A DNA stretch of 64,000 bases from Roseovarius litoreus (GTDB taxonomy: Bacteria; Pseudomonadota; Alphaproteobacteria; Rhodobacterales; Rhodobacteraceae): positions 372,001 to 436,000 of the forward strand of contig NZ_FRCB01000003.1 in the NCBI RefSeq assembly GCF_900142765.1, written 5' to 3'. The notes beneath the pieces are model-generated. The model searched no databases, was not told the DNA's origin, and saw only the letters and a list, made by a program, of their open reading frames with translations. Of the stretch, positions 8,627 to 26,849 are shown one piece after another (the first letter of the stretch is position 1; each line of letters starts with the position of its first letter). A program made the translations under genes and the position numbers.

Positions 8627-10039
8627 TCAGAGTGGTGCGATCTTCGGCCAGGGGTGCGCCGCTTCGAAATGCGCCGCCAGTCCGAGCACGAGATCATCCT
8701 CGAGCCTGCGTCCGGCGATCTGCAGGCCGACGGGCAGCCCCTCGTCGCAGAGCCCGCACGGCACCGAGATGACCGGGTGTCCTGTCATGTTCATCGGGTA
8801 GGTCAGGAACCAGCCGATCAGCGGATTGACCGGCTGTCCCGAAATATCCGACGGCGGGCCGCCTGACTGGGCAAAGGCGGTAACGCAGGTCGTGGGGCAG
8901 AGCAGGATATCGACCTTGTCAAAAAGCGCGGTCATGGCCTGCCATACGCGGTCACGGGTCTTGAGGGCCTTGCCGAAGCGCACCATGTCGATGGCGCGCC
9001 CTTCTTCGATCAGGGTTTGGACGACCGGTTCGAGAAGATCGAGATCGCCCGCGCCGAGTTCTCCATAAAGGCCCGCGACCTTGGCGCGCCAGAGATCGAG
9101 AAACGCCGCTTCGGTGTCCGGGGGCAGCGTCAGATCGGCCTCGACCACCTGACAGCCGAGGGTGGCGAACACTTCGGCACTCTTGCGACAGGCCCGCGCG
9201 ACATCGGCGCGCACGGGAAAGAGGCCGAGATCGGGGCTGAAGCCCACGCGAATGTCGCAAAGCGGTTTCTGCGCAAGACCGTTCGGTTGCTCGACCGGGA
9301 GCGAGAAGATGCCGCCAGCGGTGGGGCCGAGCATCGCGCGGTAAAGCAGATCGGCATCCGCCACGCTGCGCGCGATCGGTCCGTTGTGGAAATAGGGCGT
9401 GTGGCTGAAGAAGCTTTGCGCCACATCCGGCACCCGCCCGAAGGTGGGCTTGAAGCCCACCGTGCCGCAGATGCTGGCGGGAATTCGGATCGATCCGGCG
9501 CCGTCGCTGCCTTCGGCGAAAGGCACCAGCGCCGCCGCCACGGCCGCTGCCGACCCGCCGCTTGACCCTCCTGCGATCCGGTCGAGCCGCCAGGGGTTGG
9601 CCGTTGGGCCGAAGATCGCATTGTCGGTCACCGCCTTATGCCCGAATTCGGGCGTGTTGGTCTTGCCGAGGACAATCGCGCCCTGATCCTTGAGCCGGGT
9701 GACGAGGGCCGCATCCTCGGACGGGATCCAGTTTTCGAAAAGCCGCGAGCCGCGTGTCGTGCGGATGCCGGCGGTGGGCGTGAGGTCCTTGAGCACGATG
9801 GGCAGCCCCATGAGGCTGCGTCCTGCGCCAAGGCCCGCCGCGATGTCACGATCAAGCGCATCAGCCGTGTCCAGCGCGCGGTCGGCATCCAGCGTGCAGA
9901 TCGCGTTGATCGTGGGATTGTGCGTCTCGATCTTGTTGAGAAAGGCGCCAGTCACTTCGCGGCAGCTGATGCGCCGAGCCCGGATCAGCGCAGCAAGCTC
10001 CACGGCGGAAAGCTGGGTGATGTCATCGGTATGGGACAC
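8627..10039 (-). CDS. Amidase (amidase signature family)
   Basis: A 470-aa amidase-signature hydrolase that splits amides to a carboxylic acid and an amine or ammonia. The Ser-cisSer-Lys triad can be placed at Lys84 (IVLKDLTPTAG), Ser159 in GGSSGGSAA and Ser183 in GSDGAGSIRIPAS; the 24-residue spacing between the serines is standard. Its length is normal for the family and no signal peptide is visible. It lies 284 bases upstream of the TetR operon on the same strand and could supply an acid for CoA activation there, but no acyl-CoA ligase is present in the window. It may equally be independent; the substrate is unknown. Confidence 0.88.
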   Translation of the reverse strand: MSHTDDITQLSAVELAALIRARRISCREVTGAFLNKIETHNPTINAICTLDADRALDTADALDRDIAAGLGAGRSLMGLPIVLKDLTPTAGIRTTRGSRLFENWIPSEDAALVTRLKDQGAIVLGKTNTPEFGHKAVTDNAIFGPTANPWRLDRIAGGSSGGSAAAVAAALVPFAEGSDGAGSIRIPASICGTVGFKPTFGRVPDVAQSFFSHTPYFHNGPIARSVADADLLYRAMLGPTAGGIFSLPVEQPNGLAQKPLCDIRVGFSPDLGLFPVRADVARACRKSAEVFATLGCQVVEADLTLPPDTEAAFLDLWRAKVAGLYGELGAGDLDLLEPVVQTLIEEGRAIDMVRFGKALKTRDRVWQAMTALFDKVDILLCPTTCVTAFAQSGGPPSDISGQPVNPLIGWFLTYPMNMTGHPVISVPCGLCDEGLPVGLQIAGRRLEDDLVLGLAAHFEAAHPWPKIAPL

Positions 10040-10113
10040 GGCTTATCCTCGGGTTTTGGGATCGGGCACCTGTTGAACAGACGCCCCGCTCAGGTTTAGA
10101 CAGCGAGCAGGAT

Positions 10114-10323
10114 ATCACCAATGACCACATCTCTGACCAGCAGGACAACAACCGTATAGCCCATGATGTTGCGAATGCCCAAGCCCGCGATGGCCAGTAT
10201 GGGCACCGGTGTCACAACCGGACATGCATCACCCCCGAGCACCTGCAGATCGGCTCGCAGGCGGACAACAAGCGCGACGACTGGGAGAACTGGGCTTACG
10301 GGGTTGACCCGCACTTCCTCTGA
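10114..10323 (+). pseudogene. Remnant of an HNH endonuclease gene (C-terminal part)
   Basis: The frame ending at TGA 10321-10323 reads GHRCHNRTCITPEHLQIGSQ and continues ADNKRDDWENW. This is the C-terminal half of a small HNH nuclease: an H..C.N..C..P.HL metal-binding core followed by the G...DN..D helix common in phage and mobile-element HNH proteins. The sequence before it (about 10114-10170) in the same frame has no HNH N-terminal domain and no start codon with a ribosome binding site, so I read it as a decayed fragment. It lies just outside the putative island end at 10456 and may be a trace of an earlier insertion. Confidence 0.6.
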
Positions 10324-10455
10324 CCTTCGCGCGCAGGAGGGGCCACGCCGAGCCGACCTAGGCGTCACCCGAGCCACCCGTCGCGGGACACTTTCCGGGG
10401 CACTTTGGCCCGGGGGCAACCCGCGCGGCGCATCGGTTCAAGAATCGGGAGGAGT

Positions 10456-10472
10456 TGGCTGGGGTGGTAGGA
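10456..10472 (+). repeat. 17-base direct repeat of the tRNA-Gln 3' end (putative att site)
   Basis: TGGCTGGGGTGGTAGGA here is identical, in the same orientation, to 27306-27322, the 3' end of tRNA-Gln (CCA plus acceptor and T-stem). Identity stops exactly at both sides. Tyrosine-recombinase islands leave just such a 3' tRNA fragment at the end far from the intact tRNA. Confidence 0.7.
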
Positions 10473-10567
10473 ACTGCTCTGCTCCCCAACACTGATAGAA
10501 GCCCGGGTTGGCTCGAGAATGATCGAATAAACGGCGAGTTTCGAAATATCTTGAAAAATGGACATGG

Positions 10568-10605
10568 ACAGATGTGTTGCAATTCATGCTATCTGCAACA
10601 TCTGT
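10568..10605. promoter_or_regulatory. Inverted repeat upstream of the TAXI TRAP operon
   Basis: ACAGATGTGTTGCA (10568-10581) and TGCAACATCTGT (10594-10605) are complementary apart from a 2-base bulge, with 12 bases between them. They sit about 100 bases before the TRAP binding-protein start and could be an operator or a leader hairpin. No known regulator motif is assigned. Confidence 0.45.
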
Positions 10606-10705
10606 AGCGAGCGAACGCAATTAGAGACAGACGATCCTGAGCATTCGTAAGATACGCTCCGACATTCTCATGCTGGAGTTTCAGTTAAACATCGAGGGAG
10701 AGAAC

Positions 10706-11701
10706 ATGACGACGACACTTTTCAAAGTCGTGGCACTTGGGACTACCATCACGGCGGGAGCCGTTTTTGCCGACACCACTCAAGACCGCACGGGCTGGCC
10801 CGAAGGATTCACGGTTGGCACGGCATCACAGGGTGGCACCTATTTCGCCTATGGTTCGGGCTGGGCGAGCCTTGTTGCCGAAGAGCTTGGCCTGACCGGT
10901 GGCGCCGAAGTGACCGGTGGCCCGATGCAGAATATGGCGCTGGTGCATACCGGCGAAGCCCAGTTCGGCATGACGACCATGGGACCGGCGGCAGAATCGC
11001 TGGCAGGCACCAACCCGATCGCACCGGGTCTGCAGATGACCAACGCATGTGCCATGTTCCCGATGTATCAGACGCCGTTCAGCGTAACCGCTCTGTCCTC
11101 GTCGGGCATCACGTCGGTTTCCGAAATCCCCGCCGGTGCGCGCATCGGCTTTGGTCCCGCGGGATCGACCTCGGACACCTATTTTCCGCGCATGATGGAA
11201 ACGCTCGGCGTCGAGTTCGAGCGCCGCAACGGCGGTTGGGGCGATCTTGGCAGCCAGCTTCAGGACGGTCTTCTGGACGTGATCGCCTTCGCGGCGGGCG
11301 TGCCGGTGCCGGCGGTGTCGCAGCTTGAAGTGCAGACCGACGTGAACATCATCGAATTCACCGAAGAAGAGCAGGCCAAGCTGCTCGAGGCCTTCCCGGT
11401 TTCGGAATTCGAGATCGCGGCGGACATCTATACCACGCTCGAGGCACCGGCGCGGTCCGTGTCGATGTGGAACTTCGCGGTCGCCAATTGCGATCTGCCC
11501 GCAAGCTTCGTGAAGGCCACCGTCGATGTGGTGATGTCGGATAACGAGCGGATGATGAACATTCACCGCGCCGCCCGGTCGACGCTGCCCGAGAACTGGG
11601 ACAAGAACAAGGTCATGAAATGGCACCCGGGTGCTGCGGAATGGTTCAAGGAAAACGCCGGAGCCGACATTCCGGACGACATGATCCATTCGGCGATGTA
11701 A
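10706..11701 (+). CDS. TRAP transporter solute-binding protein, TAXI family
   Basis: A 331-aa periplasmic binding protein of the TAXI family, the substrate-capturing part of a TRAP transporter. A signal peptide covers residues 1 to about 22 (FKVVALGTTITAGAVFA, then DTTQ). The mature start FTVGTASQGGTYFAYGSGWA is the defining T-A-x-x-G-G-T-Y element. Later segments (GEAQFGMTTMGPAAE; RIGFGPAGSTSDTYF) also match. ATG 10706 is preceded by GAGGGAGAG, which decides the start against ATG 10670. The fused permease follows 100 bases downstream behind a strong hairpin. TAXI proteins are linked to glutamate, other dicarboxylates and uncharacterised acids; the ligand is unknown here. Confidence 0.9.
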   Translation: MTTTLFKVVALGTTITAGAVFADTTQDRTGWPEGFTVGTASQGGTYFAYGSGWASLVAEELGLTGGAEVTGGPMQNMALVHTGEAQFGMTTMGPAAESLAGTNPIAPGLQMTNACAMFPMYQTPFSVTALSSSGITSVSEIPAGARIGFGPAGSTSDTYFPRMMETLGVEFERRNGGWGDLGSQLQDGLLDVIAFAAGVPVPAVSQLEVQTDVNIIEFTEEEQAKLLEAFPVSEFEIAADIYTTLEAPARSVSMWNFAVANCDLPASFVKATVDVVMSDNERMMNIHRAARSTLPENWDKNKVMKWHPGAAEWFKENAGADIPDDMIHSAM

Positions 11702-11724
11702 TATCCAATAAGTGACCCAACAAA

Positions 11725-11754
11725 GCGCCGTGCCCCTTCGGTGGGGCGCGGCGC
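11725..11754 (+). promoter_or_regulatory. Strong intercistronic hairpin between TRAP binding protein and permease
   Basis: A 12-bp stem, GCGCCGTGCCCC (11725-11736) / GGGGCGCGGCGC (11743-11754), with one G-U pair and a TTCGGT loop. No T-run follows. Such hairpins usually stabilise the upstream mRNA or partly terminate, so that the binding protein is made in excess over the permease. Confidence 0.65.
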
Positions 11755-11801
11755 ATCCGTATAAAAGAAGGCAAAAGCCGCAGCACGAGGGAAGAGTTGA
11801 C

Positions 11802-14069
11802 GTGTCGGACGAAAGATCAGAAATTGTCGAACCCGTTATTGCAGAAGGCGTCGACCAGGAACCGGTCGAACCCAATCGCAGACAATTCACCGGCCTGATG
11901 GCCAAGTTTGCGGCATTTCTCGCCATCGTCTATGCGGCGTTCCACATGGCGGCGCTGAACGGTGTTTCGATATCCGACTATACCGGGATCGATCTGCCGC
12001 TTCTGCCTCAGTTTCCCATGGAAACCTGGAATTTCCGCGTCGTGCATATCGCCGGGGCACTGGTTCTGGGGTTTCTCATGTTCGCCGCATACAGGGTGAA
12101 CACGGATGACGACCCGCGTGAGACACCAATCCTGCGCCTGACGGGTTATGCTCTGCTGATCCCCGTTGCGATCGCGGCCTGGACCGTGGTCCAGTTCCTT
12201 TTGCGGCTCAACAGTGGCGAGCTGCCCGTCATGGGGGGCTTGGTGACATGGCCCGCCTTTCCCGGAACAGAGGTCTACGCGCAAGAACTTTGGTGGTATG
12301 GCACACCGCTCTTGATCGCCACGTTCGGGGCCATCATCCTGAGCTGGTTCGAGCGCAGCAAGCCACAAACTATGGCAGCCTCGGATATAGTCATGGCGTT
12401 GTGCGGCGTTCTCGTGGCGCTCTACCTCGTTGCGATCTATTCGACCGCGGCGCGCAATTCGGTCGGCACGTCCTTCGTGCCCATCGGCGTGGCTTTTGCC
12501 GCGACGGCCGGCTCCGCCCTGATCCTCGAGCTGACGCGGCGGGTGGCCGGGCTTGCGCTGGTCATCATCGCCGGCGTGTTTCTTGCCTATACCTTCACCG
12601 CGCATCTGCTGCCCGGGGTCCTTGCCGTTCAGAGCGCCTATACCTGGCAGCGCTTTTTCGGCCATGTCTATTCCGACGCGGGCATTCTCGGACCGACTAC
12701 TGCGGTCAGTTCGACCTATATCATCCTCTTCATCATCTTCGCGGCTTTCCTGCAGGCCTCGAAAGTTGGTGATTACTTTGTGAACTTTGCTTTCGCCGCG
12801 GCAGGGCGCGCGCGCGGTGGCCCGGCCAAGGTGGCGATTTTTGCATCGGGCCTCATGGGTATGATCAACGGCACATCGGCGGGCAATGTCGTGGCCACAG
12901 GCTCGCTCACGATCCCGTTGATGAAAAAGGTCGGCTACCATAGACGAACCGCCGGCGCGATCGAGGCGGCCGCCTCGACCGGGGGGCAAATCATGCCGCC
13001 GATCATGGGTGCGGGCGCCTTCATCATGGCCGAGATCACTGGCATTCCCTATACCGAGATCGCATTCGCGGCGATCATCCCCGCCGTGCTTTACTTCGTG
13101 TCGATCTATTTCATGGTCGACTTCGAGGCCGCAAAGCTGGGCATGCGCGGCATGCGCGAGGACGAGCTTCCCAAGCTCAAGGAGATGATCAAGCGGGTTT
13201 ACCTGTTCATCCCGATCATCATCCTGATCGTGGCGCTTTTCCTTGGATATTCGGTCATCCGTGCCGGCACGCTGGCCACGATTTCGGCGGCGGTCGTCAG
13301 TTGGCTGACACCGGTGCGCATGGGGCCGCGCGCCATCGTCAAGGCGCTCGAGCTTGCGGGCCTCATGTCGATCCAGATCATCGCCGTCTGTGCCGCGGCC
13401 GGTATCATCGTAGGCGTCATCAGCCTGACCGGCGTCGGCGCGCGCTTCTCGGCACTGCTGCTGAACCTGGCGGGCCTGAGCCAGCTTCTGGCGCTTATGT
13501 TCGCGATGTGCATCGCGATCCTTCTGGGTATGGGGATGCCGACCACCGCCGCCTATGCCGTTGCCGCCTCGGTGGTGGCGCCCGGTCTGATCGAGATCGG
13601 AATTCCACCGCTGACGGCACATTTCTTCGTCTTCTACTTCGCGGTCGTCTCGGCCATCACACCGCCTGTGGCCTTGGCGTCCTATGCGGCGGCCGGCATT
13701 TCGGGCGGCAACCCGATGTCGACCTCGGTTGCCTCGTTCAAGATCGGCATCGCAGCGTTCATCGTGCCCTTCATGTTCTTCTACAACAGTGCGCTCCTGA
13801 TGGATGGCGGCACCTTCGAAATCCTGCGTGCAGGGGCCACGGCGATCTTCGGGGTCTTCCTGCTGAGCGCAGGGGTCCAGGGATGGTTCATCGGCGCGCG
13901 TCCGGCATGGTTCCTGCGTGCCGGGCTGATCCTGGCGGCGCTGTTCATGATCGAAGGCGGGGTTATCACGGACCTGATCGGCATTGGGGCGGCGCTGGCG
14001 GTGTTCTTCGTGCAAAAGGTGCTTGCCCCACCGCCTGATGCACAGCTCGACGTTCGAGGAATGGACTGA
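11802..14069 (+). CDS. TRAP transporter permease, fused small and large membrane subunits
   Basis: About 755 aa with a short acidic N-terminus, roughly four membrane helices (small-subunit-like part, to about residue 130), then a long DctM-like part with a dozen or more helices. INGTSAGNVVATGSLTIPLM, AAASTGGQIMPPIMGAGAF and GMGMPTTAAYAVAASVVAP are hallmark DctM/TAXI-permease segments. It imports the ligand of the adjacent TAXI protein using an ion gradient. I prefer GTG 11802 (VSDERSEIVEP) because GAGGGAAGAG lies just before it; the longer frame from 11712 runs through the intercistronic hairpin. A soluble insertion near residue 475-490 (KLKEMIKRVY) separates two helix blocks. It forms an operon with 10706-11701. 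Confidence 0.9.
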   Translation: MSDERSEIVEPVIAEGVDQEPVEPNRRQFTGLMAKFAAFLAIVYAAFHMAALNGVSISDYTGIDLPLLPQFPMETWNFRVVHIAGALVLGFLMFAAYRVNTDDDPRETPILRLTGYALLIPVAIAAWTVVQFLLRLNSGELPVMGGLVTWPAFPGTEVYAQELWWYGTPLLIATFGAIILSWFERSKPQTMAASDIVMALCGVLVALYLVAIYSTAARNSVGTSFVPIGVAFAATAGSALILELTRRVAGLALVIIAGVFLAYTFTAHLLPGVLAVQSAYTWQRFFGHVYSDAGILGPTTAVSSTYIILFIIFAAFLQASKVGDYFVNFAFAAAGRARGGPAKVAIFASGLMGMINGTSAGNVVATGSLTIPLMKKVGYHRRTAGAIEAAASTGGQIMPPIMGAGAFIMAEITGIPYTEIAFAAIIPAVLYFVSIYFMVDFEAAKLGMRGMREDELPKLKEMIKRVYLFIPIIILIVALFLGYSVIRAGTLATISAAVVSWLTPVRMGPRAIVKALELAGLMSIQIIAVCAAAGIIVGVISLTGVGARFSALLLNLAGLSQLLALMFAMCIAILLGMGMPTTAAYAVAASVVAPGLIEIGIPPLTAHFFVFYFAVVSAITPPVALASYAAAGISGGNPMSTSVASFKIGIAAFIVPFMFFYNSALLMDGGTFEILRAGATAIFGVFLLSAGVQGWFIGARPAWFLRAGLILAALFMIEGGVITDLIGIGAALAVFFVQKVLAPPPDAQLDVRGMD

Positions 14070-17428: not shown

Positions 17429-17851
17429 TCACTCGGCCACCGTGTTGGGCGTGCCGACGGCACCTGCAAACACGACGAATATCCGCGCAATGCCCGCGCC
17501 GGTATTGGTGCCCTGATGCCAGGAGCCCAAGGCCTCCACCAGCGTGTCGCCCTCGCGATAGACCCGCGTTCCATCCGCGCCGTAATCGACGGTCAATTCT
17601 CCCTCCAGCATATGCGCGGTCAGCGGCGCCTCGTGCAGGTGCCAGCCCGTCTTTTGACCGCTTTGCATGGTGACGATCGCCACCGTGATCTGCGCCGGGC
17701 CTTTGGGGTAGGCAATCGGTTGGCCGATCACCGTCGTTTCCGTCTGCAAAAGCACCTCGACCGGCGGGTAGCTGTCTTTAGCTAGGCCGGGCGCCGCCAG
17801 AAGGGCCAGCGCCGGCACCGCAATCAAACACTTGGTCATTGTTCTGAACAT
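17429..17851 (-). CDS. Secreted cupin-domain protein
   Basis: About 140 aa: a signal peptide (MTKCLIAVPALALLAAPGLA) and a single small cupin barrel. GWHLHEAPLTAHMLEGELTV carries the first cupin motif (H-x-H...E) and the second half has EGDTLVEALGSWHQGTN with a further His. It is therefore a likely periplasmic metal-binding cupin, possibly ligand-binding or protective. I chose ATG 17851 because GAAGGGA lies 10 bases before it; ATG 17881, overlapping the upstream stop by 4 bases, is a real alternative and would make the gene translationally coupled. It is the last gene of the hybrid transporter operon. Confidence 0.8.
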   Translation of the reverse strand: MFRTMTKCLIAVPALALLAAPGLAKDSYPPVEVLLQTETTVIGQPIAYPKGPAQITVAIVTMQSGQKTGWHLHEAPLTAHMLEGELTVDYGADGTRVYREGDTLVEALGSWHQGTNTGAGIARIFVVFAGAVGTPNTVAE

Positions 17852-17877
17852 CTGTGATATTTCCCTTCGGTCTTGCT

Positions 17878-19110
17878 TCATCTCGCAGCGCCCGCGGTCA
17901 GTCGTCGCCAATCTTCCAACTTGGCGCGCGCCCGTCCCGATACGCTCACCCGGTTGATCAATCCCGCACTCAAAGCCATCAACAACATCTCCAGCCGGCC
18001 CGGATTGCGTCCTTGGGCGTGGGCGCGGATTTGCCGCTCGATCAGTCCGCCGGCGAGCCACAAGCCCACCAGCGTCAACGCTTCCAGCATATATTTGATT
18101 GTCCGATACCCTTGCGTGATCACGAACAGCGCGAAGATCGCCACCGAGAATTCATCGATCAAACTGCCCCAATAGGTGCCGAATAACCGGTAACTCCAGG
18201 GCCGCCCAGATTGCGTGTAATCCCTGGCTTCGGGCAATAACGGCAGACGCGTGCCCACTATGTCAGGATACTGCCCCATCCGGGCAATCGCCGTGGCGGA
18301 CTGATGTCTGCGCTCCAGCGCGTCCAACATAGCGAAGGCCAGCGCCGGATGCAGATCCGTATGGGTGATGACATTTACCTCTGCGCCTACAAGGTCCAGA
18401 TTGCCGGGAGGCAATGACTGCGACAGGTCGAACCCACCCGCCGGCAGCATGGTGGTGCTCAGATAATCAAGGTTGATCGTTATCGAGCGTGCGTCTCCAT
18501 AGCTGAACGCCGCAAGATCTCTGTCTCGAGCCAAAGTGTGAATCAATGGGTTTTCAGCGGCCAGCATGAAAAAGCCCGCATCAGCCTCCCCATCGGTGAG
18601 CCGCCTTGCGGCTTCGGTGATCTCGGCATGCTCGATCGTGGCGGTCTGTGGCGTCACCCCGTAAAGCGTCAGCAATGCGCGCGCGGCCACGGCCGTGGCA
18701 CTGCCCTCGGGGGGCATTATCACGCGCCGACCACGCAGGTTCACTGGTGACACAAGTTCGCCCAACGCAATGGAATGAAACATGAAAAGCGGCTGAAGTT
18801 CCACCTTTGCGAGGCTCCGCACCCGCGGCGTGGCCGCCGGATCGACAGGCTGCGCGACAAAGCCGATATCAACGCCGCTGTCGGGAGCGTTCACATTGTC
18901 GATGATCTCGGCGGAGTTTGGGTTGGCGCGCAGCTCGGTTGTGAAGCCGTGCTCGGCCAGCACCTCTGCATAGGCCCTGGCATGAGCATGATACGTGCCG
19001 CCCACTGGCCCGGCCTCGATTACGATGCCGCGTGGCGGCAGCGCCAACACGACATATAGGCCCAAGGCCGCGGCGCACAGCGTCACCACCACGACCTTGA
19101 GCCGGATCAT
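17878..19110 (-). CDS. Membrane-anchored TAXI-family solute-binding protein
   Basis: 410 aa with an N-terminal membrane segment (residues 5-24) and a TAXI-like binding domain to about 300: IVIEAGPVGGTYHAHARAYA carries the G-G-T-Y element. A C-terminal hydrophobic segment follows (IDEFSVAIFALFVITQGYRT, and YMLEALTLVGLWLAGGLI), then a basic tail. Standard TAXI proteins are free in the periplasm and pair with a TRAP permease; this one is anchored at both ends and no TRAP permease gene accompanies it. Its start overlaps the ABC permease stop by 4 bases (ATGA), placing it in one operon with ABC parts. It could be a receptor or an auxiliary binding protein. Confidence 0.8.
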   Translation of the reverse strand: MIRLKVVVVTLCAAALGLYVVLALPPRGIVIEAGPVGGTYHAHARAYAEVLAEHGFTTELRANPNSAEIIDNVNAPDSGVDIGFVAQPVDPAATPRVRSLAKVELQPLFMFHSIALGELVSPVNLRGRRVIMPPEGSATAVAARALLTLYGVTPQTATIEHAEITEAARRLTDGEADAGFFMLAAENPLIHTLARDRDLAAFSYGDARSITINLDYLSTTMLPAGGFDLSQSLPPGNLDLVGAEVNVITHTDLHPALAFAMLDALERRHQSATAIARMGQYPDIVGTRLPLLPEARDYTQSGRPWSYRLFGTYWGSLIDEFSVAIFALFVITQGYRTIKYMLEALTLVGLWLAGGLIERQIRAHAQGRNPGRLEMLLMALSAGLINRVSVSGRARAKLEDWRRLTAGAAR

Positions 19111-19763
19111 CGGGCTGCGTCCGCGGTCATTTGCGCCGACATGGCGCGCCGGTCCGTAACCCTGTGCAGGATGCCAAAGGGTATGACGCAGATCCGCTGC
19201 GCCGCGACAAACAGAAGGCCGACCGCCACGAAGAAAATCAGCCGCGCAGCTTCATCCGCGATCTGCTCGGCGGTGAAAATCACTACGGACATCGCCTCAG
19301 GCACGCCAATCGCCGCCCCCAGACAGGATGACGATATCACCATCTGCAAAGCCCGCCCGAAACTGGGAATGACCAGAAGCGCGGCGCGCCTGTCGCCTTT
19401 CCTCAGATGTCGGAACATGGCGACGAATTGATCGGCCCCATAGGCCGCAACATAAGGGATATTGCCCAACACGAGCAGCACAAGGGGCCGCATCTCGGCC
19501 AGCGGGCCAAGCCGTGCGCCCCCGTTCGGCAACAGGCCCGACAGGAAGAACAGGACCACGAAGACCGGCAGTGCGTGCAACAGTCGATTATAGGTTTTGA
19601 ACAAACGCGCCACGATCCCGACCCGCGACAACATACCCAACGCCGCTACGAGGGCCAGCGGCAGGCCGATCGCCAGCGCCAGCACTGATGCACCCAGATT
19701 CAGGGAAAACCCGCGCAGGAACGCCATAAGGAAATCCGGCGACACCGCCTCCAACAGCATCAT
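19107..19763 (-). CDS. Amino-acid-type ABC transporter permease (HisM/GlnP-like)
   Basis: 218 aa with about five membrane segments. FLRGFSLNLGASVLALAIGL is the N-terminal signature of polar amino-acid permeases, and the cytoplasmic EAA-type loop is recognisable in LLVIPSFGRALQMVISSSCL, though it departs from the consensus EAA...G pattern. ATG 19763 overlaps the stop of the upstream fusion gene (ATGATG arrangement), so the 416-codon frame extending to 20357 is an artefact. It probably pairs with the permease half of 19760-21403. No ABC ATPase gene is in this operon or nearby. Confidence 0.82.
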   Translation of the reverse strand: MMLLEAVSPDFLMAFLRGFSLNLGASVLALAIGLPLALVAALGMLSRVGIVARLFKTYNRLLHALPVFVVLFFLSGLLPNGGARLGPLAEMRPLVLLVLGNIPYVAAYGADQFVAMFRHLRKGDRRAALLVIPSFGRALQMVISSSCLGAAIGVPEAMSVVIFTAEQIADEAARLIFFVAVGLLFVAAQRICVIPFGILHRVTDRRAMSAQMTADAAR

Positions 19764-21403
19764 GAGACGGCTCCTTCCGAGGGTAGAATCCGGGACAGTC
19801 CCCGCCGCGTTAGCTGTGCCGCAAACAGCACTGCGACGATATAGAACAGCACCAGAAGCCAGTAATAGAACGTCTGTGACCCGGAAAAGGCGGTGATGCC
19901 GTTCAGCGCGTTGACCAGATCGGGCACGCCCACGACACTCGCCGCCGAAATGCCACGCACCGCATTGATCAGGTAACTGTCCACCTGTGCAGAGGACAGG
20001 CTGAGCGCGCGCATGAACCGCGATGTGCCCTCGCGGGCCTCGGTGATCCTGTAGGCTTCGGCCACAGCGGCACCGGCGAAGCTGCCGTTCATCCCCGCGA
20101 TCGCCAGAATGGCCGCCAGCATGGCCGAACTGTAGGAATACGAAAACGTCCAAACGGTCAGCGTGCCCATCACCACCAGGACAAGCATGACCGGCGCATT
20201 CTGAAAGACCGTCAGCACCGATTTCGCCAACGCCCTCAACAGCCAGATCGGGCTGACCAGCATCTTGCCAATTGACAGGCCCACCAGCGTCGTCGCCATC
20301 AGCGCAAGGCTTACCGCAAGCATGGATGTCCCAAGACCGCCCAGAAACAAGCGCCAAGCTACGTCGCTTTCCATGAATCCCAGACGAACCTCGATCCCCA
20401 GCCGCGCTTTCAGTGCGCTCTCGAACCGCGCGCCCAGACCAGCCACCGGGCTACGTGCCAGTTGCACGTTCAGCGGCGGCGACAGGCAGCTTTCGGGCGC
20501 GGCACGGCACTCCGCCGATTGCCAGCGCTCTTGTTCCTCGGTCAGGAACGCTACCGGCACATCATATTTGCGGGCAAGCCGCAGAAAGCTTCCGTCGCGG
20601 TGCATCTCCTTCAGAATCTCCGACATAGCCGCCGCCATCTCGTCGGATATTCCCAAGGGCATTGCCATCCCCCAAGGCACCGGCGCAAAGCCAAGCTTGC
20701 GCTCGAACCGGCTCGGTTCGGTTTCGGATGATACTAGCGGCAGCAGCAGCGTGTCATCCTGCGCGATGAGCGGGCACATCTCGTTCAACAGCGCATCGAT
20801 TAGTTGTTGCGACCGCGAGAACAGCATCAAGCGCCCCACATCAGGCGCAAGGATCACGTTGGAATAATTCCCCACCGTCGTGCAGACCAGACGCGCCTCC
20901 AGGTCCTCCCACGCCAGCGGAGTCTGATCCCCTGCGCCCACAACGATCGTCTCGCTCTGAAAGTAATGCGGGCGCAGGAAATGAACTGTGGGATCGCGCT
21001 GCGTGTTATGCCCCATGGTCGCGATGACCAGATCGACCTCTCCCTCGCCTAGCTTCGAGATCCGGTTCACCGGCGTGACCTCCACAGCCTCCAACGCCAC
21101 GTCCAGCCGTGCCGCGATCTCACGCGCGACATCGGCCTCGAACCCGGTGGCGCCAGCCGGCCCGATCTCGGCGAAGCGCGGATAGTCGCCGCGCAGCCCG
21201 ACCCGCAGAAGCCGGTCGCAGACCACCCGCGTTTCCACCGACCGGGTTTCGTTGGCTTGGTTCTCACAGCCTGCGGCAACTTTCGCGTGAAGAGCTTTGA
21301 CCGCTGGTAGTTCGGTGCTCTGCGTCGCGCCCGGCGTCGGCGCTATCACCCAGATCAGTGCGGCTAGCGTGAAAAGGGCGCCGAAGCCTTGAAGCCTGCT
21401 CAT
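19760..21403 (-). CDS. Fused amino-acid binding protein and ABC permease
   Basis: 547 aa. Signal peptide (1-28), then a family-3 solute-binding domain (about 60-285) with LLRVGLRGDYPRFAE, GFEADVAREIAARLDVALE and GEGEVDLVIATMGHNTQRDP. Next come a Cys-containing linker (ECRAAPESC) and a permease domain (about 345-535) with several helices and an EAA-like loop (REGTSRFMRALSLSSAQVDS). Such fusions exist in the amino-acid ABC family, so the ligand site is tethered to the pore. The gene is coupled by ATGA overlaps to the methyltransferase before it and the second permease after it. The ligand is unknown; a cationic or polar amino acid is only the family default. Confidence 0.85.
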   Translation of the reverse strand: MSRLQGFGALFTLAALIWVIAPTPGATQSTELPAVKALHAKVAAGCENQANETRSVETRVVCDRLLRVGLRGDYPRFAEIGPAGATGFEADVAREIAARLDVALEAVEVTPVNRISKLGEGEVDLVIATMGHNTQRDPTVHFLRPHYFQSETIVVGAGDQTPLAWEDLEARLVCTTVGNYSNVILAPDVGRLMLFSRSQQLIDALLNEMCPLIAQDDTLLLPLVSSETEPSRFERKLGFAPVPWGMAMPLGISDEMAAAMSEILKEMHRDGSFLRLARKYDVPVAFLTEEQERWQSAECRAAPESCLSPPLNVQLARSPVAGLGARFESALKARLGIEVRLGFMESDVAWRLFLGGLGTSMLAVSLALMATTLVGLSIGKMLVSPIWLLRALAKSVLTVFQNAPVMLVLVVMGTLTVWTFSYSYSSAMLAAILAIAGMNGSFAGAAVAEAYRITEAREGTSRFMRALSLSSAQVDSYLINAVRGISAASVVGVPDLVNALNGITAFSGSQTFYYWLLVLFYIVAVLFAAQLTRRGLSRILPSEGAVS

Positions 21404-22137
21404 GCCGTTTTCTCCCGTCCCGATATTGACCGGCGCTCTGGCCCTTCGCTTTCGACCACGACCAGCACCACCTCGAGGAACACGAAACCCGCCATCTCGA
21501 TCAGACCTTCAGGCTCGTGGCTGATCCTCGAGAGTGCCGCGAGCTTGTCCGGCCCGACCGGCACCAACGCCGTTTCCACGACACGTGCGCCGCAACCAGC
21601 CTCCGCCAGACGGTCCAATGTCATGCGCAACCCGACGCAGCGGTTCTGCGTGAAGACCGCGCTGCCGCCTTGCCGAAGCCGCTTTGGCAGACCGGCAAGA
21701 AATGGATCGAGCACCTTACGGCCATCCTCACCGCCCACCGACCAGAACGCGGCACGGCTTCCGCTCTGAAGTTGCTCGGCGGGAAAATTGGGCAGGTTTG
21801 CCAGCACCAGATCGAACCGGAGGTCCGATTCGACCGCGTCCCACATGGCGCCCTGGCCAAGCTGCACACGGGCCTCGGGCGCGATCCGTGCCAACCGGTC
21901 TTCGGCAAGATGCAATGCATCGGGATCCAGATCGGTCGCCACGACATCTGTCGCCCCAAGCTGCAGGGCAGTTCCGGCCAGAACCCCCGATCCGGTGCCC
22001 AGATCGAGGACGTGGCGCCCCCGGCACAGGCCCGGATGCCGCATCAGATGCCGGACGATCAGTCCGGAATAATCGCTAGGCCAGAAAGGGCGCAGCCCGG
22101 CGATCCCGGTGCTGGTCATCACTCCGAGGTCATCCAC
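21400..22137 (-). CDS. SAM-dependent methyltransferase (HemK/PrmC-like fold)
   Basis: About 245 aa. HVLDLGTGSGVLAGTALQLG is motif I of class I methyltransferases, and VVATDLDPDALHLAEDRL carries the acidic residue binding the ribose. LVLANLPN occupies the place of the catalytic N-P-P-Y of HemK/PrmC and N6-adenine enzymes; the P-P-Y change makes the target unclear. The start is uncertain: GTG 22137 has GGAAAGGG nine bases before it and overlaps the preceding gene, while ATG 22119 has its purine tract too close. The stop overlaps the next gene by 4 bases. A methyltransferase between transporter parts suggests modification of the ligand or of a protein, but this is speculation. Confidence 0.8.
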   Translation of the reverse strand: MDDLGVMTSTGIAGLRPFWPSDYSGLIVRHLMRHPGLCRGRHVLDLGTGSGVLAGTALQLGATDVVATDLDPDALHLAEDRLARIAPEARVQLGQGAMWDAVESDLRFDLVLANLPNFPAEQLQSGSRAAFWSVGGEDGRKVLDPFLAGLPKRLRQGGSAVFTQNRCVGLRMTLDRLAEAGCGARVVETALVPVGPDKLAALSRISHEPEGLIEMAGFVFLEVVLVVVESEGPERRSISGREKTA

Positions 22138-23128
22138 GGCCAAGCACCCTTTCCAATTGCGCCAGGCTGGCAGCGCGCACAGGGGCGGGCAGGGGGACGA
22201 AGCCCGCCGAGATCGCAAGCTCGCCGCCATGCAACAGGCAATGCCGGAAGAAACGCGCCACCGCATTCGACCGTTCCGCCAGCGCCGCCGCGCGCGGTAT
22301 CAAAATCCGCGTGCGCGTCAGCAGCGGCCATTCATGCGCGGTCGCGCCATGGTCCGGTTGCCATGTTGAGAAACCGCCATCTGCGAGCTCCAGATCAAGC
22401 ATCTCGAGCCCGAATAGCCGCGCCGTGGAGAATTCCAGGTATCCGATACTGCCGCGCAAACGGCGCACTGTCTGCGCCACCCCATGCGCTCCGAAAACCG
22501 CAAGGCCCGGCGTTGCCGTGAAGGGCGTGTCCTTGGCCTGAGCGTTTGAACGTTGCCCGGCCAGCCACGCTGCCGCCAAGCGCGAAGACCCCGACACATC
22601 CCGCCGGACGACAGGCGTGATCGCAAGATCCGGCAGCGCCAGCCCCGGATTTCCCGCGCGCAACCGTGCATCGGACCACACACGGATCTCACCCTCGAAG
22701 ATCGCCCGCACATCATCCCGACGCAGCCGCAGCCGGCCCACGTCAATCCCCGGAAGGTGCACCGCGAATCCAAGTGCCGCCGCAACGATAGGGACTTGCT
22801 CAAGATCGGCGCGCTCAAGCTCGACGCGCGGCATGGCAATGTCCGAGCCTCCGAAATCGGCCTCGCGGTTGCGCGCCGCCCTCAGTCCGGTCCCGGACCC
22901 AAGCGGCACATATCCGAGCTTGATCCCCAGCTCCGGTCCAAAACGGTCGGCCCATGCCAAGTAGATCGGATGCGGCACCGACGCGCCAACCCCGCGCAGC
23001 CATAGTGTGCGCGTCGGCTCGGCCCCGAAGGCCCACGCGGGGTGACTTAGAGTGACAAGGCTCGTGACCGCGCCCAGACCAAAGGCACGACGGGATAGAG
23101 GCACGTCATGGGCATCAACCCGCCGCAA
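22130..23128 (-). CDS. PstS-like periplasmic binding protein with twin-arginine signal
   Basis: 332 aa. The N-terminus PLSRRAFGLGAVTSLVTL is a Tat-type signal (S-R-R-x-F). The mature part follows PstS/PBP-like-2 proteins: LWLRGVGASVPHPIYLAWAD, LGYVPLGSGTGLRA, DFGGSDIAMP, and a late SGSSRLAAAWLAG with SIGYLEFS. The GxGSGxG-type loop and F-GGSD-P are the phosphate-binding elements of PstS, so phosphate or another oxyanion is possible. The first in-frame start is TTG 23128; GTG 23104, directly before the Tat motif, is an alternative. It is the first gene of the hybrid operon, and no PstCAB genes accompany it. Confidence 0.8.
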   Translation of the reverse strand: MRRVDAHDVPLSRRAFGLGAVTSLVTLSHPAWAFGAEPTRTLWLRGVGASVPHPIYLAWADRFGPELGIKLGYVPLGSGTGLRAARNREADFGGSDIAMPRVELERADLEQVPIVAAALGFAVHLPGIDVGRLRLRRDDVRAIFEGEIRVWSDARLRAGNPGLALPDLAITPVVRRDVSGSSRLAAAWLAGQRSNAQAKDTPFTATPGLAVFGAHGVAQTVRRLRGSIGYLEFSTARLFGLEMLDLELADGGFSTWQPDHGATAHEWPLLTRTRILIPRAAALAERSNAVARFFRHCLLHGGELAISAGFVPLPAPVRAASLAQLERVLGRG

Positions 23129-23804: not shown

Positions 23805-25400
23805 TCAGCCGGAAGCTTTAGGCGTCCAACTGAACGGAAACGGCCGCACCCCGAGGAGCACGACGGTCATACGCGTCAGGAAAGTGCCGAGGACGGTAAT
23901 GATAATGGCCAGTTGGATTTCTTCCGGCGCCAGCACGTCGGGACGAGTCAACAAGAAGACCGAAAAGGCCAGCCCCCAGAAAAAGGGAACTTCGGCGTAA
24001 AGCTCGGTCTTGAGGGTTCCAACTTGACCGGATTGGCGCACGATGTCGCGCAGGATGCCGCCACCGGCGGCTGTCAGCATCGCGATAATGGGTCCCCATA
24101 GCCACAGCGGTTCGGCATCCATGGATATTGCGATGGCAAGGCCAGAAACCGTAAAAACAGCCATTCCCATTGAGTCCGCAAGTTCCTGAATATTTGCCAT
24201 CGTGAGAAACCGCGGCGCTTTAGGCAGGCGCGACAAGGTCCAGCCCCGGCCTGCCAGTAGTCGCATCGCTAGAATGATGGAAAAGCCAACCAAAACGGTG
24301 ACACCAACCAGGCACAGGTAGAGCGGCGATGACATCATGCCCATTGGGTGCCGATCCAACAGTATGTCCCGCAAGGCCCCCCCGCCCAAGGCGGGAAGGG
24401 CGGACAGCACCAGTGCGCCAAAGAAGCTGAAATTTTCGCGGTAGGCGATCAATACCCCTGAGACTGCAAAAGCCACTGTCCCGACAATTGTCAGAATGTA
24501 GAACAGCGTGGTATCGAGCACGTAGCTCATCAGGACAGAAGAAATGCCTGAATGCAGGCGTTTCTTCAACTGTCCGTTGTCTTCAAGTGTCTTAATCGCT
24601 TGATCGATGGCGGCCAGTGTTTTGGGTTGCATGGTAGTTTTACTGAAAATGAAGTGAACACTCGCGATACCCGGCATCACGATTTCGGCGGCCTGAAACT
24701 TAAGCCCAGCCTCGAGTGCCGACGTCGATACGCCAAGCCTGTCTCCAACAAACCCATCGATCCGTCCTGCCAATAGGTTACGCAGGTTTTCCTCGTCACT
24801 CGATGCGTTAACAATACGCCCGGCCCGTGTCGCGGTTTTTATGCTTCCATTCAGTGCGGAGTCTGCGAACAGGCGACCCGGAACTACTCCAAGCCGGAAG
24901 TCGGGCAGTTCGTTTATCAGCTTGGCGATATCGGTCGTGTCATACAGGTTGGTCTCGTCCTTTCTGACATAAAGCGAGATCCGCGCCCATCGATAAGGAA
25001 GAGAATAATGGAACCGGTCGTCGCCGTTGTCTGGCTTGAAAGCCCCAAGCGCAATATCGCCCCGACCTTCGGCAAGATATTGCAGCTGATCATGCCAAGA
25101 CTGCCTGCGCAAATTAGCTTCGATGCCAGCTAGCTGCAAAACATCTGTCAGGATCGTGATATCCAGCCCTTCAACGCCCTGCAGCTGTCCGGCCACTGGA
25201 AATTGGTAAGGTTTGGACATGATCCATCCACCACGCAGGACAGCCGTGCCGTATTTCGGTAGCGCTGGCGGAGGAGCTGTTCCCGATGGACCTACTATGT
25301 CCTGCGCCATCGCCGCTGGAATGAGTGGGACGCAGAGGCTCAAAGCAGTAGCGAAGCTCAAGGTAGTGAAAAACAGGAATACCTGGGCCCAGGATCGCAT
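23805..25400 (-). CDS. Fusion of a family-3 solute-binding domain with a TRIC/UPF0126 (YadS-type) channel domain
   Basis: 531 aa. Signal peptide or anchor (1-33, ending AAMAQD). Residues about 50-285 form a family-3 binding domain: AVLRGGWIMSKPYQF, GLDITILTDVLQLAGIEANL, GRGDIALGAFKPDNGDDRFH and a hinge region LAGRIDGFVGDRLGVS. From about 300 on come seven or so membrane helices with two UPF0126 repeats, each carrying its glycine-rich motif: TVAFAVSGVLIAYRENF...GGGALRDILL and GMAVFTVSGLAIAISMD...GGGILRDIV. UPF0126 proteins are prokaryotic TRIC cation channels. The fusion suggests a channel gated by, or coupled to, a periplasmic amino-acid-like ligand. The gene is monocistronic. Domain calls are firm; the function is inferred. 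Confidence 0.85.
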   Translation of the reverse strand: MRSWAQVFLFFTTLSFATALSLCVPLIPAAMAQDIVGPSGTAPPPALPKYGTAVLRGGWIMSKPYQFPVAGQLQGVEGLDITILTDVLQLAGIEANLRRQSWHDQLQYLAEGRGDIALGAFKPDNGDDRFHYSLPYRWARISLYVRKDETNLYDTTDIAKLINELPDFRLGVVPGRLFADSALNGSIKTATRAGRIVNASSDEENLRNLLAGRIDGFVGDRLGVSTSALEAGLKFQAAEIVMPGIASVHFIFSKTTMQPKTLAAIDQAIKTLEDNGQLKKRLHSGISSVLMSYVLDTTLFYILTIVGTVAFAVSGVLIAYRENFSFFGALVLSALPALGGGALRDILLDRHPMGMMSSPLYLCLVGVTVLVGFSIILAMRLLAGRGWTLSRLPKAPRFLTMANIQELADSMGMAVFTVSGLAIAISMDAEPLWLWGPIIAMLTAAGGGILRDIVRQSGQVGTLKTELYAEVPFFWGLAFSVFLLTRPDVLAPEEIQLAIIITVLGTFLTRMTVVLLGVRPFPFSWTPKASG

Positions 25401-25701: not shown

Positions 25702-25986
25702 ATGGGAAACGGAAACAGACCGACGCCGGAGTTTCGGCGCGAAGCGGTCAGGCTGGCACTGACCAGCGGACGCACACGACGTGAAATCGCAGATGATCTC
25801 GGCATGGGCCTCTCAACGCTGACGCGATGGGTGAGGCAGGATCGGGATGCCGAGGAGCCTGCGGAAGACCAGGCCGATCTCCGGGCCGAGCTGAAGCGGC
25901 TGCGCAAGGAGAACGCGGTGCTGAAGCAGAAGCGCGACATCCTAAAAAAAGCCGCAGCCTTCTTCGCGAAAGACGCAAGTCGATGA
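25702..25986 (+). CDS. IS3-family transposase OrfA
   Basis: A 94-aa OrfA: helix-turn-helix (RREAVRLALTSGRTRREIAD, then DLGMGLSTLTRWVRQ) and a leucine-zipper-like C-terminus (LRAELKRLRKENAVLKQKRD). AGGAGG lies before ATG 25702. A slippery A AAA AAG run near 25945-25952 allows -1 frameshifting into the orfB frame, giving the fused OrfAB transposase typical of the family. OrfA overlaps the orfB start as ATGA (25983-25986). Confidence 0.9.
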   Translation: MGNGNRPTPEFRREAVRLALTSGRTRREIADDLGMGLSTLTRWVRQDRDAEEPAEDQADLRAELKRLRKENAVLKQKRDILKKAAAFFAKDASR

Positions 25987-26849
25987 GCTTTGCCTTCATC
26001 GAAGCGGAAAAGGCCAGCTTGCCCATCAGTCGCATGTGCCAGACTCTGGGTGTCAGCCAGAGCGGCTTCTTTGCGTGGCGGGAACGCCCGGCCTGCCAGC
26101 GCCAGCGGCAGGACATGGTCTACCTCGCGCATATCCGCACGGCCTTCGCCTTGTCGAACGGCACCTATGGCAGCCCGCGGATGCACCGGGATCTGATCGA
26201 CGACGGGCACCGGATCGGGCGTCACCGAACGGTCCGACTGATGCGCGAGAACGGCCTCGTGGCAAGGCAGAAACGGCGGTTCAAGCGGACGACGGACAGC
26301 CAGCATGTTTGGCCGGTCGCCCCCAACCTGATCGCCTAGGACTTCCGGGCCGAGAAGCCGGACCGGAAATGGGGCGCTGACATTTCCTACATCTGGACGG
26401 CGCAGGGTTGGCTCTATCTCGCGGTGGTCATTGACCTCTACTCGAGGCGGGTCGTCGGCTGGGCGACGAGTGACCGGCTGAAGCGCGGCCTCGCAGTCGA
26501 GGCTCTGCGGCGCGCCATCGTGAACCGCGAACCTGCGCCGGGGCTGGTCCATCATTCCGATCGTGGATCGCAATACTGCTCTGTCGATTATCAGGCCGCG
26601 CTCCGAAAACGCGGCATCCTGATCTCGATGAGCGGCAAGGGGAACTGCTACGACAACTCGATGGTCGAGACCTTCTTCAAGTCCATCAAGTCGGAACTGA
26701 TCTGGCCGGTCGCCTGGCAAACCCGGAAACAGGCTGAAAACGCCATCGTCAGATACATCGACGGGTTCTATAATCCCGTCAGGCGACATTCATCGCTCGG
26801 CTTTCTCAGCCCCATCGCATTCGAGCGAAAAGCCCGGAAAGTGAGCTAA
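25983..26849 (+). pseudogene. IS3-family transposase OrfB, interrupted by an amber codon
   Basis: The orfB frame starts at ATG 25983 (MSFAFIEAEKASLPI) with the HTH_21 region ISRMCQTLGVSQSGFFAWRE and TYGSPRMHRDLIDDGHRIG. It stops at TAG 26337-26339 and resumes without a frame change as DFRAEKPDRKWGADISYIW. The integrase core is complete after the stop: Asp in WGADISYI, Asp in HHSDRGSQYCS, Glu in NSMVETFFKSIKSEL. In relatives this position is normally CAG (Gln), so one C-to-T change explains it. Without suppression no full transposase is made. Confidence 0.88.

Follow-up and report, generated by a model that had tools for sequence, protein, structure and literature searches.

What does a set of importer parts do when the operon that encodes it lacks an ATPase? 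The question is raised by positions 17429 to 23128 of a 64,000-nt stretch of the Roseovarius litoreus genome (NZ_FRCB01000003.1, positions 372,001 to 436,000, forward strand; here called the window), where six minus-strand genes follow one another with end-to-end overlaps. They encode a PstS-like binding protein, a methyltransferase (MT), a fusion of an amino-acid-type substrate-binding protein (SBP) with an ABC-permease-like membrane half (FUS), a second ABC-permease-like protein (PER), a TAXI-family binding protein, and a cupin. The original prediction, made from the letters of the DNA, had given this composition correctly, as domain searches backed all of its family names, and had offered two readings of it: a sensing or uptake machine relying on an ATPase from elsewhere, or a receptor complex in which transport has been lost. 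The latter is preferred here. FUS-PER is best explained as an amino-acid receptor derived from an ABC importer and equipped with interchangeable signalling outputs, an explanation that we consider fairly probable, and the system probably senses amino acids rather than importing them.

The EAA loop of type I importer permeases docks the ATPase. This region was aligned for 50 PER and 52 FUS membrane halves (window and related loci, full length or nearly so) together with 22 ordinary permease frames that matched a PER profile at E ≤ 0.01 and were trimmed to their last 260 residues. Between the anchors of the loop, the ordinary polar-amino-acid permeases had 73 residues (22/22) and PER had 53 (50/50); the 20 residues around the loop, including the EAA...G motif, were gone in every PER. 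The corresponding stretch of FUS measured 58 to 72 residues (median, 64; 52 sequences), and the EAA motif was absent, having been replaced. The alignment of ArtQ (4yms_D) with the PER profile stopped at position 128, as did those of 13 weaker class-wide matches. An AlphaFold2 model of PER (pLDDT, 86.5) matched 4yms_C (Z, 17.3; root mean square deviation, 3.9; 192 aligned) and retains the type I permease fold. In the FUS model (pLDDT, 81.7) the SBP half had 1xt8_B as its top match (Z, 23.8); a fold search with whole FUS returned SBP matches only, and its permease half was assigned by alignment alone. Two permease domains, as in a type I ABC importer, are therefore indicated (PER by structure model, FUS by alignment), while neither an EAA coupling loop nor a cognate ATPase gene was found. 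As these are two defining features of such importers, FUS-PER lies outside them.

ATPase-like frames, for which Walker A and LSGG-type motifs were the criterion, were also rare in the neighbourhood. Among the 46 receptor-type loci whose contig extends 2 kb or more ahead of FUS and 1 kb or more beyond PER, such a frame lay within 2 kb of the FUS-PER block in one and within 5 kb in four. The sole frame within 2 kb, at L059, was on the other strand and unrelated; we take it to be an ABC-F-like gene. In 12 ordinary permease loci drawn from a class search (A6), with distances taken from the permease midpoint, an ATPase-like frame was found at ≤0.8 kb in 10 and an EAA-like pattern in 10; L182 and L185 had no ATPase-like frame that near. 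Sharing of ATPases occurs among some ABC importers, and the related fusion of L182, with its loops intact and no ATPase close by, would suit an importer dependent on an ATPase from another locus. The docking stretch is nevertheless gone in all 50 PER and the EAA motif in FUS, and nearly all loci lacked an ATPase beside the core. With the loop deleted in one partner and replaced in the other, borrowing is highly improbable, and it was rejected as the main explanation on account of this loss. The original prediction had suggested checking whether the coupling helices keep their ATPase contacts, and in the alignment the coupling stretch is lost from PER and the EAA motif from FUS.

When genome contigs were scanned with FUS as the query, 63 loci were identified, comprising 56 with the order cyclase-MT-FUS-PER, three of PstS type, three cut by a contig end (in L052, L056, and L057 the contig begins too near the core to show the upstream gene), and one different fusion (L078). 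Their hosts include Reyranella, Enhydrobacter, Nisaea, Acetobacteraceae, Betaproteobacteria, and Rhodobacterales. The cyclase-headed order was also present in all four same-family genomes that had a full-length FUS match (38 to 41%). Since this order recurs while the genes upstream of it vary among the host groups inspected, cyclase-MT-FUS-PER can be regarded as the unit. In the branch of the window, PstS, TAXI, and cupin genes surround MT-FUS-PER in place of the cyclase. The six-gene order was found in two other assemblies, at L024 (cupin cut by the contig end) and L026 (PstS cut by the contig end), and L025 carries a degraded PstS gene and MT-FUS-PER followed by a transposase, with no TAXI gene. 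In a FUS tree these three loci and the window formed one clade (support, 100/100), with L137 adjacent. The gene set thus recurs, and the next genes in relatives are not a normal ATPase, two outcomes on which the original prediction had staked its proposal. Its picture of one hybrid of three import families has to be recast, as MT-FUS-PER is a wider module usually headed by a Cache-cyclase.

Another explanation is that PstS, TAXI, and cupin are a distinct unit for uptake or scavenging, linked to MT-FUS-PER only by a common transcript; TAXI would then supply the TAXI-TRAP permease encoded at 11712 to 14069. A PstS-TAXI pair stands alone in L145 (TAXI, 47% identical), in a genome that has a cyclase-type operon on another contig, and the TRAP permease lies only 3.4 kb away. 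Against this, gene overlaps flank MT-FUS-PER on both sides (8 nt at PstS/MT, ATGA at PER/TAXI), L024 and L026 keep the same order, and the TRAP permease has its own TAXI-like gene directly upstream, so that a separate unit is improbable. In L157 the order is TAXI-methyltransferase-FUS-PER, with a methyltransferase of another subfamily. The PstS-like relatives from an order-wide search that were inspected (L159 to L163) lie near ATPases, the arrangement of ordinary Pst operons, and were set aside.

What adjoins the permease pair in most relatives is signalling machinery. Where complete, the cyclase of the 56 loci has about 690 to 730 residues and combines a dCache-type sensor with a class III cyclase domain; the dCache domain scored above the Pfam cut-off in two of three cyclases tested. 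Residues were counted in the 53 of 60 cyclases that exceed 600 residues, the remaining seven being shorter and mostly at contig ends, and those that we take to be catalytic were kept in 53/53. In its SBP half, FUS is similar to amino-acid binding proteins, and R136 and D216, invariant in 52/52 rows, align with the ligand-binding Arg and Asp of those proteins. FUS-PER hence has, as far as can be read from sequence, the feature expected of an SBP-coupled receptor, namely an amino-acid binding domain on a membrane module that is not a working transporter. The cyclase carries a comparable signature. The dCache_1 amino-acid motif described for PctA comprises Y121, R126, W128, Y129, Y144, and D173 (PMC10104139). 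The cyclases have Y179, R184, W186, Y187, F204, and D232 (L077 numbering), each in 53/53 except Y187 (52/53), with a spacing to F204 two residues longer than that of PctA. The original prediction had proposed a modified anionic compound as ligand; for FUS this finds no support, as an amino-acid signature is kept in its binding domain, and PstS may still bind an oxyanion.

Other candidate outputs occur beside the pair. In the distant branch L138 to L141, a HAMP-SpoIIE phosphatase gene follows it in 4/4 loci (the L141 contig begins inside PER), and at L140:8406-9560 (+) an ATPase-less PER continues without a frame break into an RsbW-like HATPase_c_2 domain, with the HAMP-SpoIIE gene next. In L091 a SAM-cyclase-AAA gene lies within 0.35 kb upstream. 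GluR0-like genes, with an SBP split around membrane segments, were found at L092:5801-7141 (+) and L093:9876-11090 (-), 0.7 to 0.9 kb from ATPase-less SBP-permease fusions and on the same strand as these. With varied signalling enzymes beside one uncoupled permease pair, the pair is best explained as an input device.

The GluR0-like genes would also suit a ligand-gated facilitator or channel, in which closure of the SBP domain opens a FUS-PER pore to ATP-independent passage of a solute or ion, and the cyclase or phosphatase reports or follows the flux. That the membrane fold is kept, with PER the most constrained gene of the operon, agrees with such a pore, as does the fusion of related SBP domains to Gly_transporter (UPF0126/TRIC-like) in L078 and at 23805 to 25400 of the window. 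The partners found are, however, signalling enzymes and not enzymes for the metabolism of one substrate, and we know of no type I permease that conducts without its ATPase. A facilitator is rather unlikely.

Several observations weigh against the receptor explanation itself. FUS has lost fewer residues than PER. At L182:5182-7573 (-), an SBP-permease fusion and a permease keep intact EAA loops with no adjoining ATPase, which means that a missing neighbour alone proves little; this form may resemble the ancestor. L137 has MT-FUS-PER behind an insertion sequence-like frame with no adjoining cyclase, and L158 has no recognised output gene at the locus. No output gene was recognised in the window, where relatives have an adjoining cyclase or SpoIIE, and a class III cyclase was not found in the window genome by a search whose PF00211 control was positive in 5 of 14 known genomes. 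Neighbourhood, finally, is not proof of interaction.

The six-gene operon is under purifying selection. Ratios of nonsynonymous to synonymous substitution rates (dN/dS) against the L024 relative, whose FUS is 89% identical, were 0.29 for PstS, 0.23 for MT, 0.18 for FUS, 0.10 for PER, 0.12 for TAXI, and 0.17 for cupin (76 codons only), PER being the most constrained. These values and the recurring gene order place the operon above a chance arrangement. Decay or inactivity could be suspected from the degraded PstS gene and missing TAXI gene of L025 and from a patchy distribution, the PstS-like query (P0001) having no match at E ≤ 1e−25 among the 10 same-genus genomes listed; with six intact frames and dN/dS of 0.10 to 0.29, there is scarcely any likelihood of it, and this reading was rejected on the substitution ratios.

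How such a receptor might work can be outlined. A type I ABC-importer permease pair would have been rebuilt as the ligand receptor FUS-PER. An amino acid or close analogue would bind the fused SBP domain of FUS, which would close on a FUS-PER membrane core that has lost the usual means of ATPase docking; the resulting conformational change would go to an output protein rather than powering transport. In most relatives that output would be the adjoining Cache-cyclase, which may itself sense amino acids, and in the distant branch the HAMP-SpoIIE phosphatase, in one locus together with an RsbW-like kinase domain. The probable role of MT is to tune the complex by methylating a part of it. An NLP[HN]F motif was invariant in 65/65 aligned MTs, which points to a HemK-like N-methyltransferase. 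In the window branch, which has no cyclase, PstS and TAXI would add further inputs for ligands, and candidate outputs are the TAXI tail or an unlinked partner. A broader claim, possible rather than probable, is that these loci represent an undescribed receptor class, in which an ABC permease pair uncoupled from ATP by coupling-loop loss serves as a general sensing module with swappable outputs (adenylate cyclase or SpoIIE/RsbW partner switching). The window would then hold a version with three inputs, PstS and TAXI among them, whose state a dedicated methyltransferase adjusts as in chemotaxis adaptation.

Among the closest known systems are the polar-amino-acid type I ABC importers (Art(QN)2; PDB 4yms), which share the SBP family, the permease fold, and the two permease subunits; SBP-permease fusions of the GlnPQ kind also exist. 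The operon differs from importers of the Art(QN)2 type in having no ATPase gene, in the deletion or replacement of its EAA stretch, and in its linkage to MT and signalling enzymes. With TAXI-TRAP transporters it shares the TAXI ligand domain, but it lacks a TRAP permease, its TAXI protein has an extra C-terminal segment, and the permeases in its company are ABC type. Transporter folds have likewise been reused for sensing in receptors of other families, such as UhpC, CbrA, and Amt-type sensors; to our knowledge, none of them derives from the permease pair of an ABC importer. In the actinobacterial GlnH-GlnX-PknG system, an ABC-type amino-acid binding protein signals through a membrane protein and is used for signalling without transport (PMC9769921). 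The architecture is different, GlnX being a four-transmembrane receptor, GlnH a separate lipoprotein, and the output a Ser/Thr kinase. FUS-PER would, by analogy, work like SBP-coupled receptors of this kind. Receptors of the PctA type share the amino-acid motif with the cyclase of relatives and have a chemoreceptor output (PMC10104139), whereas the relatives have a cyclase output and an added ABC-like receptor pair. A literature search, with most subscription papers outside it, returned no account of ABC permease pairs that lack an ATPase and occur with a cyclase or phosphatase; SBP-coupled and transporter-derived receptors are already known, and none built on an ABC permease pair was found in the literature searched. 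ABC importers are a textbook case of a transport machine. If the proposal is true, a conserved branch of them, without the ATPase contact but with ligand domain and membrane core kept, shows how a transporter turns into a receptor, natural uncoupled permeases are available for study, and amino acids are suggested as ligands for orphan cyclases of Alphaproteobacteria and Betaproteobacteria. It would also caution that genes resembling parts of ABC transporters may not transport.

The six genes are listed in Table 1. ATGA overlaps join them at four of five junctions (MT/FUS, FUS/PER, PER/TAXI, and TAXI/cupin), in keeping with the original prediction that such overlaps join most of them; the PstS/MT junction, also read from the sequence, is an 8-nt overlap with a GTG start.

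Table 1. Genes of the six-gene operon in the window
Product	Position	Strand	Start or domain match
PstS-like binding protein, twin-arginine-like N-terminus	22130..23128	-	start TTG 23128 or GTG 23104
MT, S-adenosylmethionine (SAM)-dependent methyltransferase, PrmA/HemK type	21400..22137	-	PF06325, 2.1e-12
FUS, amino-acid-type SBP + ABC-permease-like membrane half, EAA motif lost	19760..21403	-	PF00497, 3.5e-21
PER, second ABC-permease-like protein without 20-residue EAA coupling stretch	19107..19763	-	
TAXI-family binding protein, both ends plausibly anchored	17878..19110	-	TIGR02122, 1.5e-12
Cupin, hydrophobic N-terminus, probably secreted	17429..17881	-	PF07883, 7.5e-11

The PstS-like protein matched PF12849 (3.7e−23) and, below its cut-off, TIGR00975 (6.6e−39); it aligned with PstS proteins of the PDB (top match, 2z22_X; 7.8e−34), and its Tat motif was read by eye. 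No PstB or PstCA was found in the operon, which thus lacks the set of a Pst phosphate importer. The N-terminal half of FUS is the part called as SBP_bac_3. Its membrane half received no Pfam call and PER only a weak one (PF00528; E, 0.045, below the cut-off); the NCBIfam polar-amino-acid permease domain TIGR01726 matched PER at 1.6e−9 and FUS at 0.0011, both below the cut-off, the two permease halves being too divergent for calls at Pfam cut-offs. TAXI matched PF16868 (9.6e−7) in addition to TIGR02122, the latter below its cut-off. Hydropathy peaks were seen at residues 6 to 24 and 314 to 332 of TAXI and at residues 15 to 33 of the cupin; the double anchoring that had been predicted for TAXI is plausible only, its second peak being weak (1.63). 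Domain searches of the operon proteins identified neither an ABC ATPase nor a TRAP permease within the operon, as had been predicted, and without the latter it falls outside the TAXI-TRAP transporters.

Receptor-type PER had a narrow spread in random genome samples. A class-wide profile search gave E ≤ 1.3e−20 in 11 of 385 genomes and a phylum-wide one E ≤ 1e−15 in 5 of 398, the window's own genome counted in each; G525 and G602 of the class-wide search were left out of closer inspection. Another class search (A6) had matches in 17 of 200 genomes, the weaker ones mostly ordinary permeases; G394 and G414 belonged to the receptor type, and receptor-type PER was matched in G353, G312, and the window's own genome. 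FUS (P0003) matched 19 of 248 family genomes at 1e−20, mostly by its SBP part only, and had no match among plasmids at E ≤ 1e−30.

Directly upstream of the operon, the gene at 23805 to 25400 (-) encodes an amino-acid-type SBP with two Gly_transporter repeats, a candidate ligand-gated channel or transporter judging from its domains; among 110 family genomes, this fusion (P0007) had only the window's own match at E ≤ 1e−40. At L078:9839-12430 (+), a triple fusion joins SBP_bac_3 (50% identical to the FUS SBP), NMT1, and Gly_transporter, placing a FUS-like ligand domain on another membrane module. Positions 8627 to 14069 hold an amidase-like frame (-), a TAXI-like SBP (+), and a fused TRAP permease (PF06808; +). 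The TAXI-like gene (identified by eye) and the permease span 10670 to 14069, on the strand opposite the operon and about 3.4 kb from it, and this permease was rejected as partner of the operon TAXI, as it follows its own TAXI-like gene. The amidase was likewise rejected as a part of the system: a related amidase occurs in 38 loci, directly ahead of the cyclase in those inspected and adjoining the cyclase operon in Reyranella-like loci, but it was not found in Rhodobacterales (L038 and L087 to L090), Nisaea (L054 and L077), or betaproteobacterial loci (L029 and L031). Upstream of the operon region, at 25702 to 26849 (+), lie frames that by eye we take to be an IS3-like transposase.

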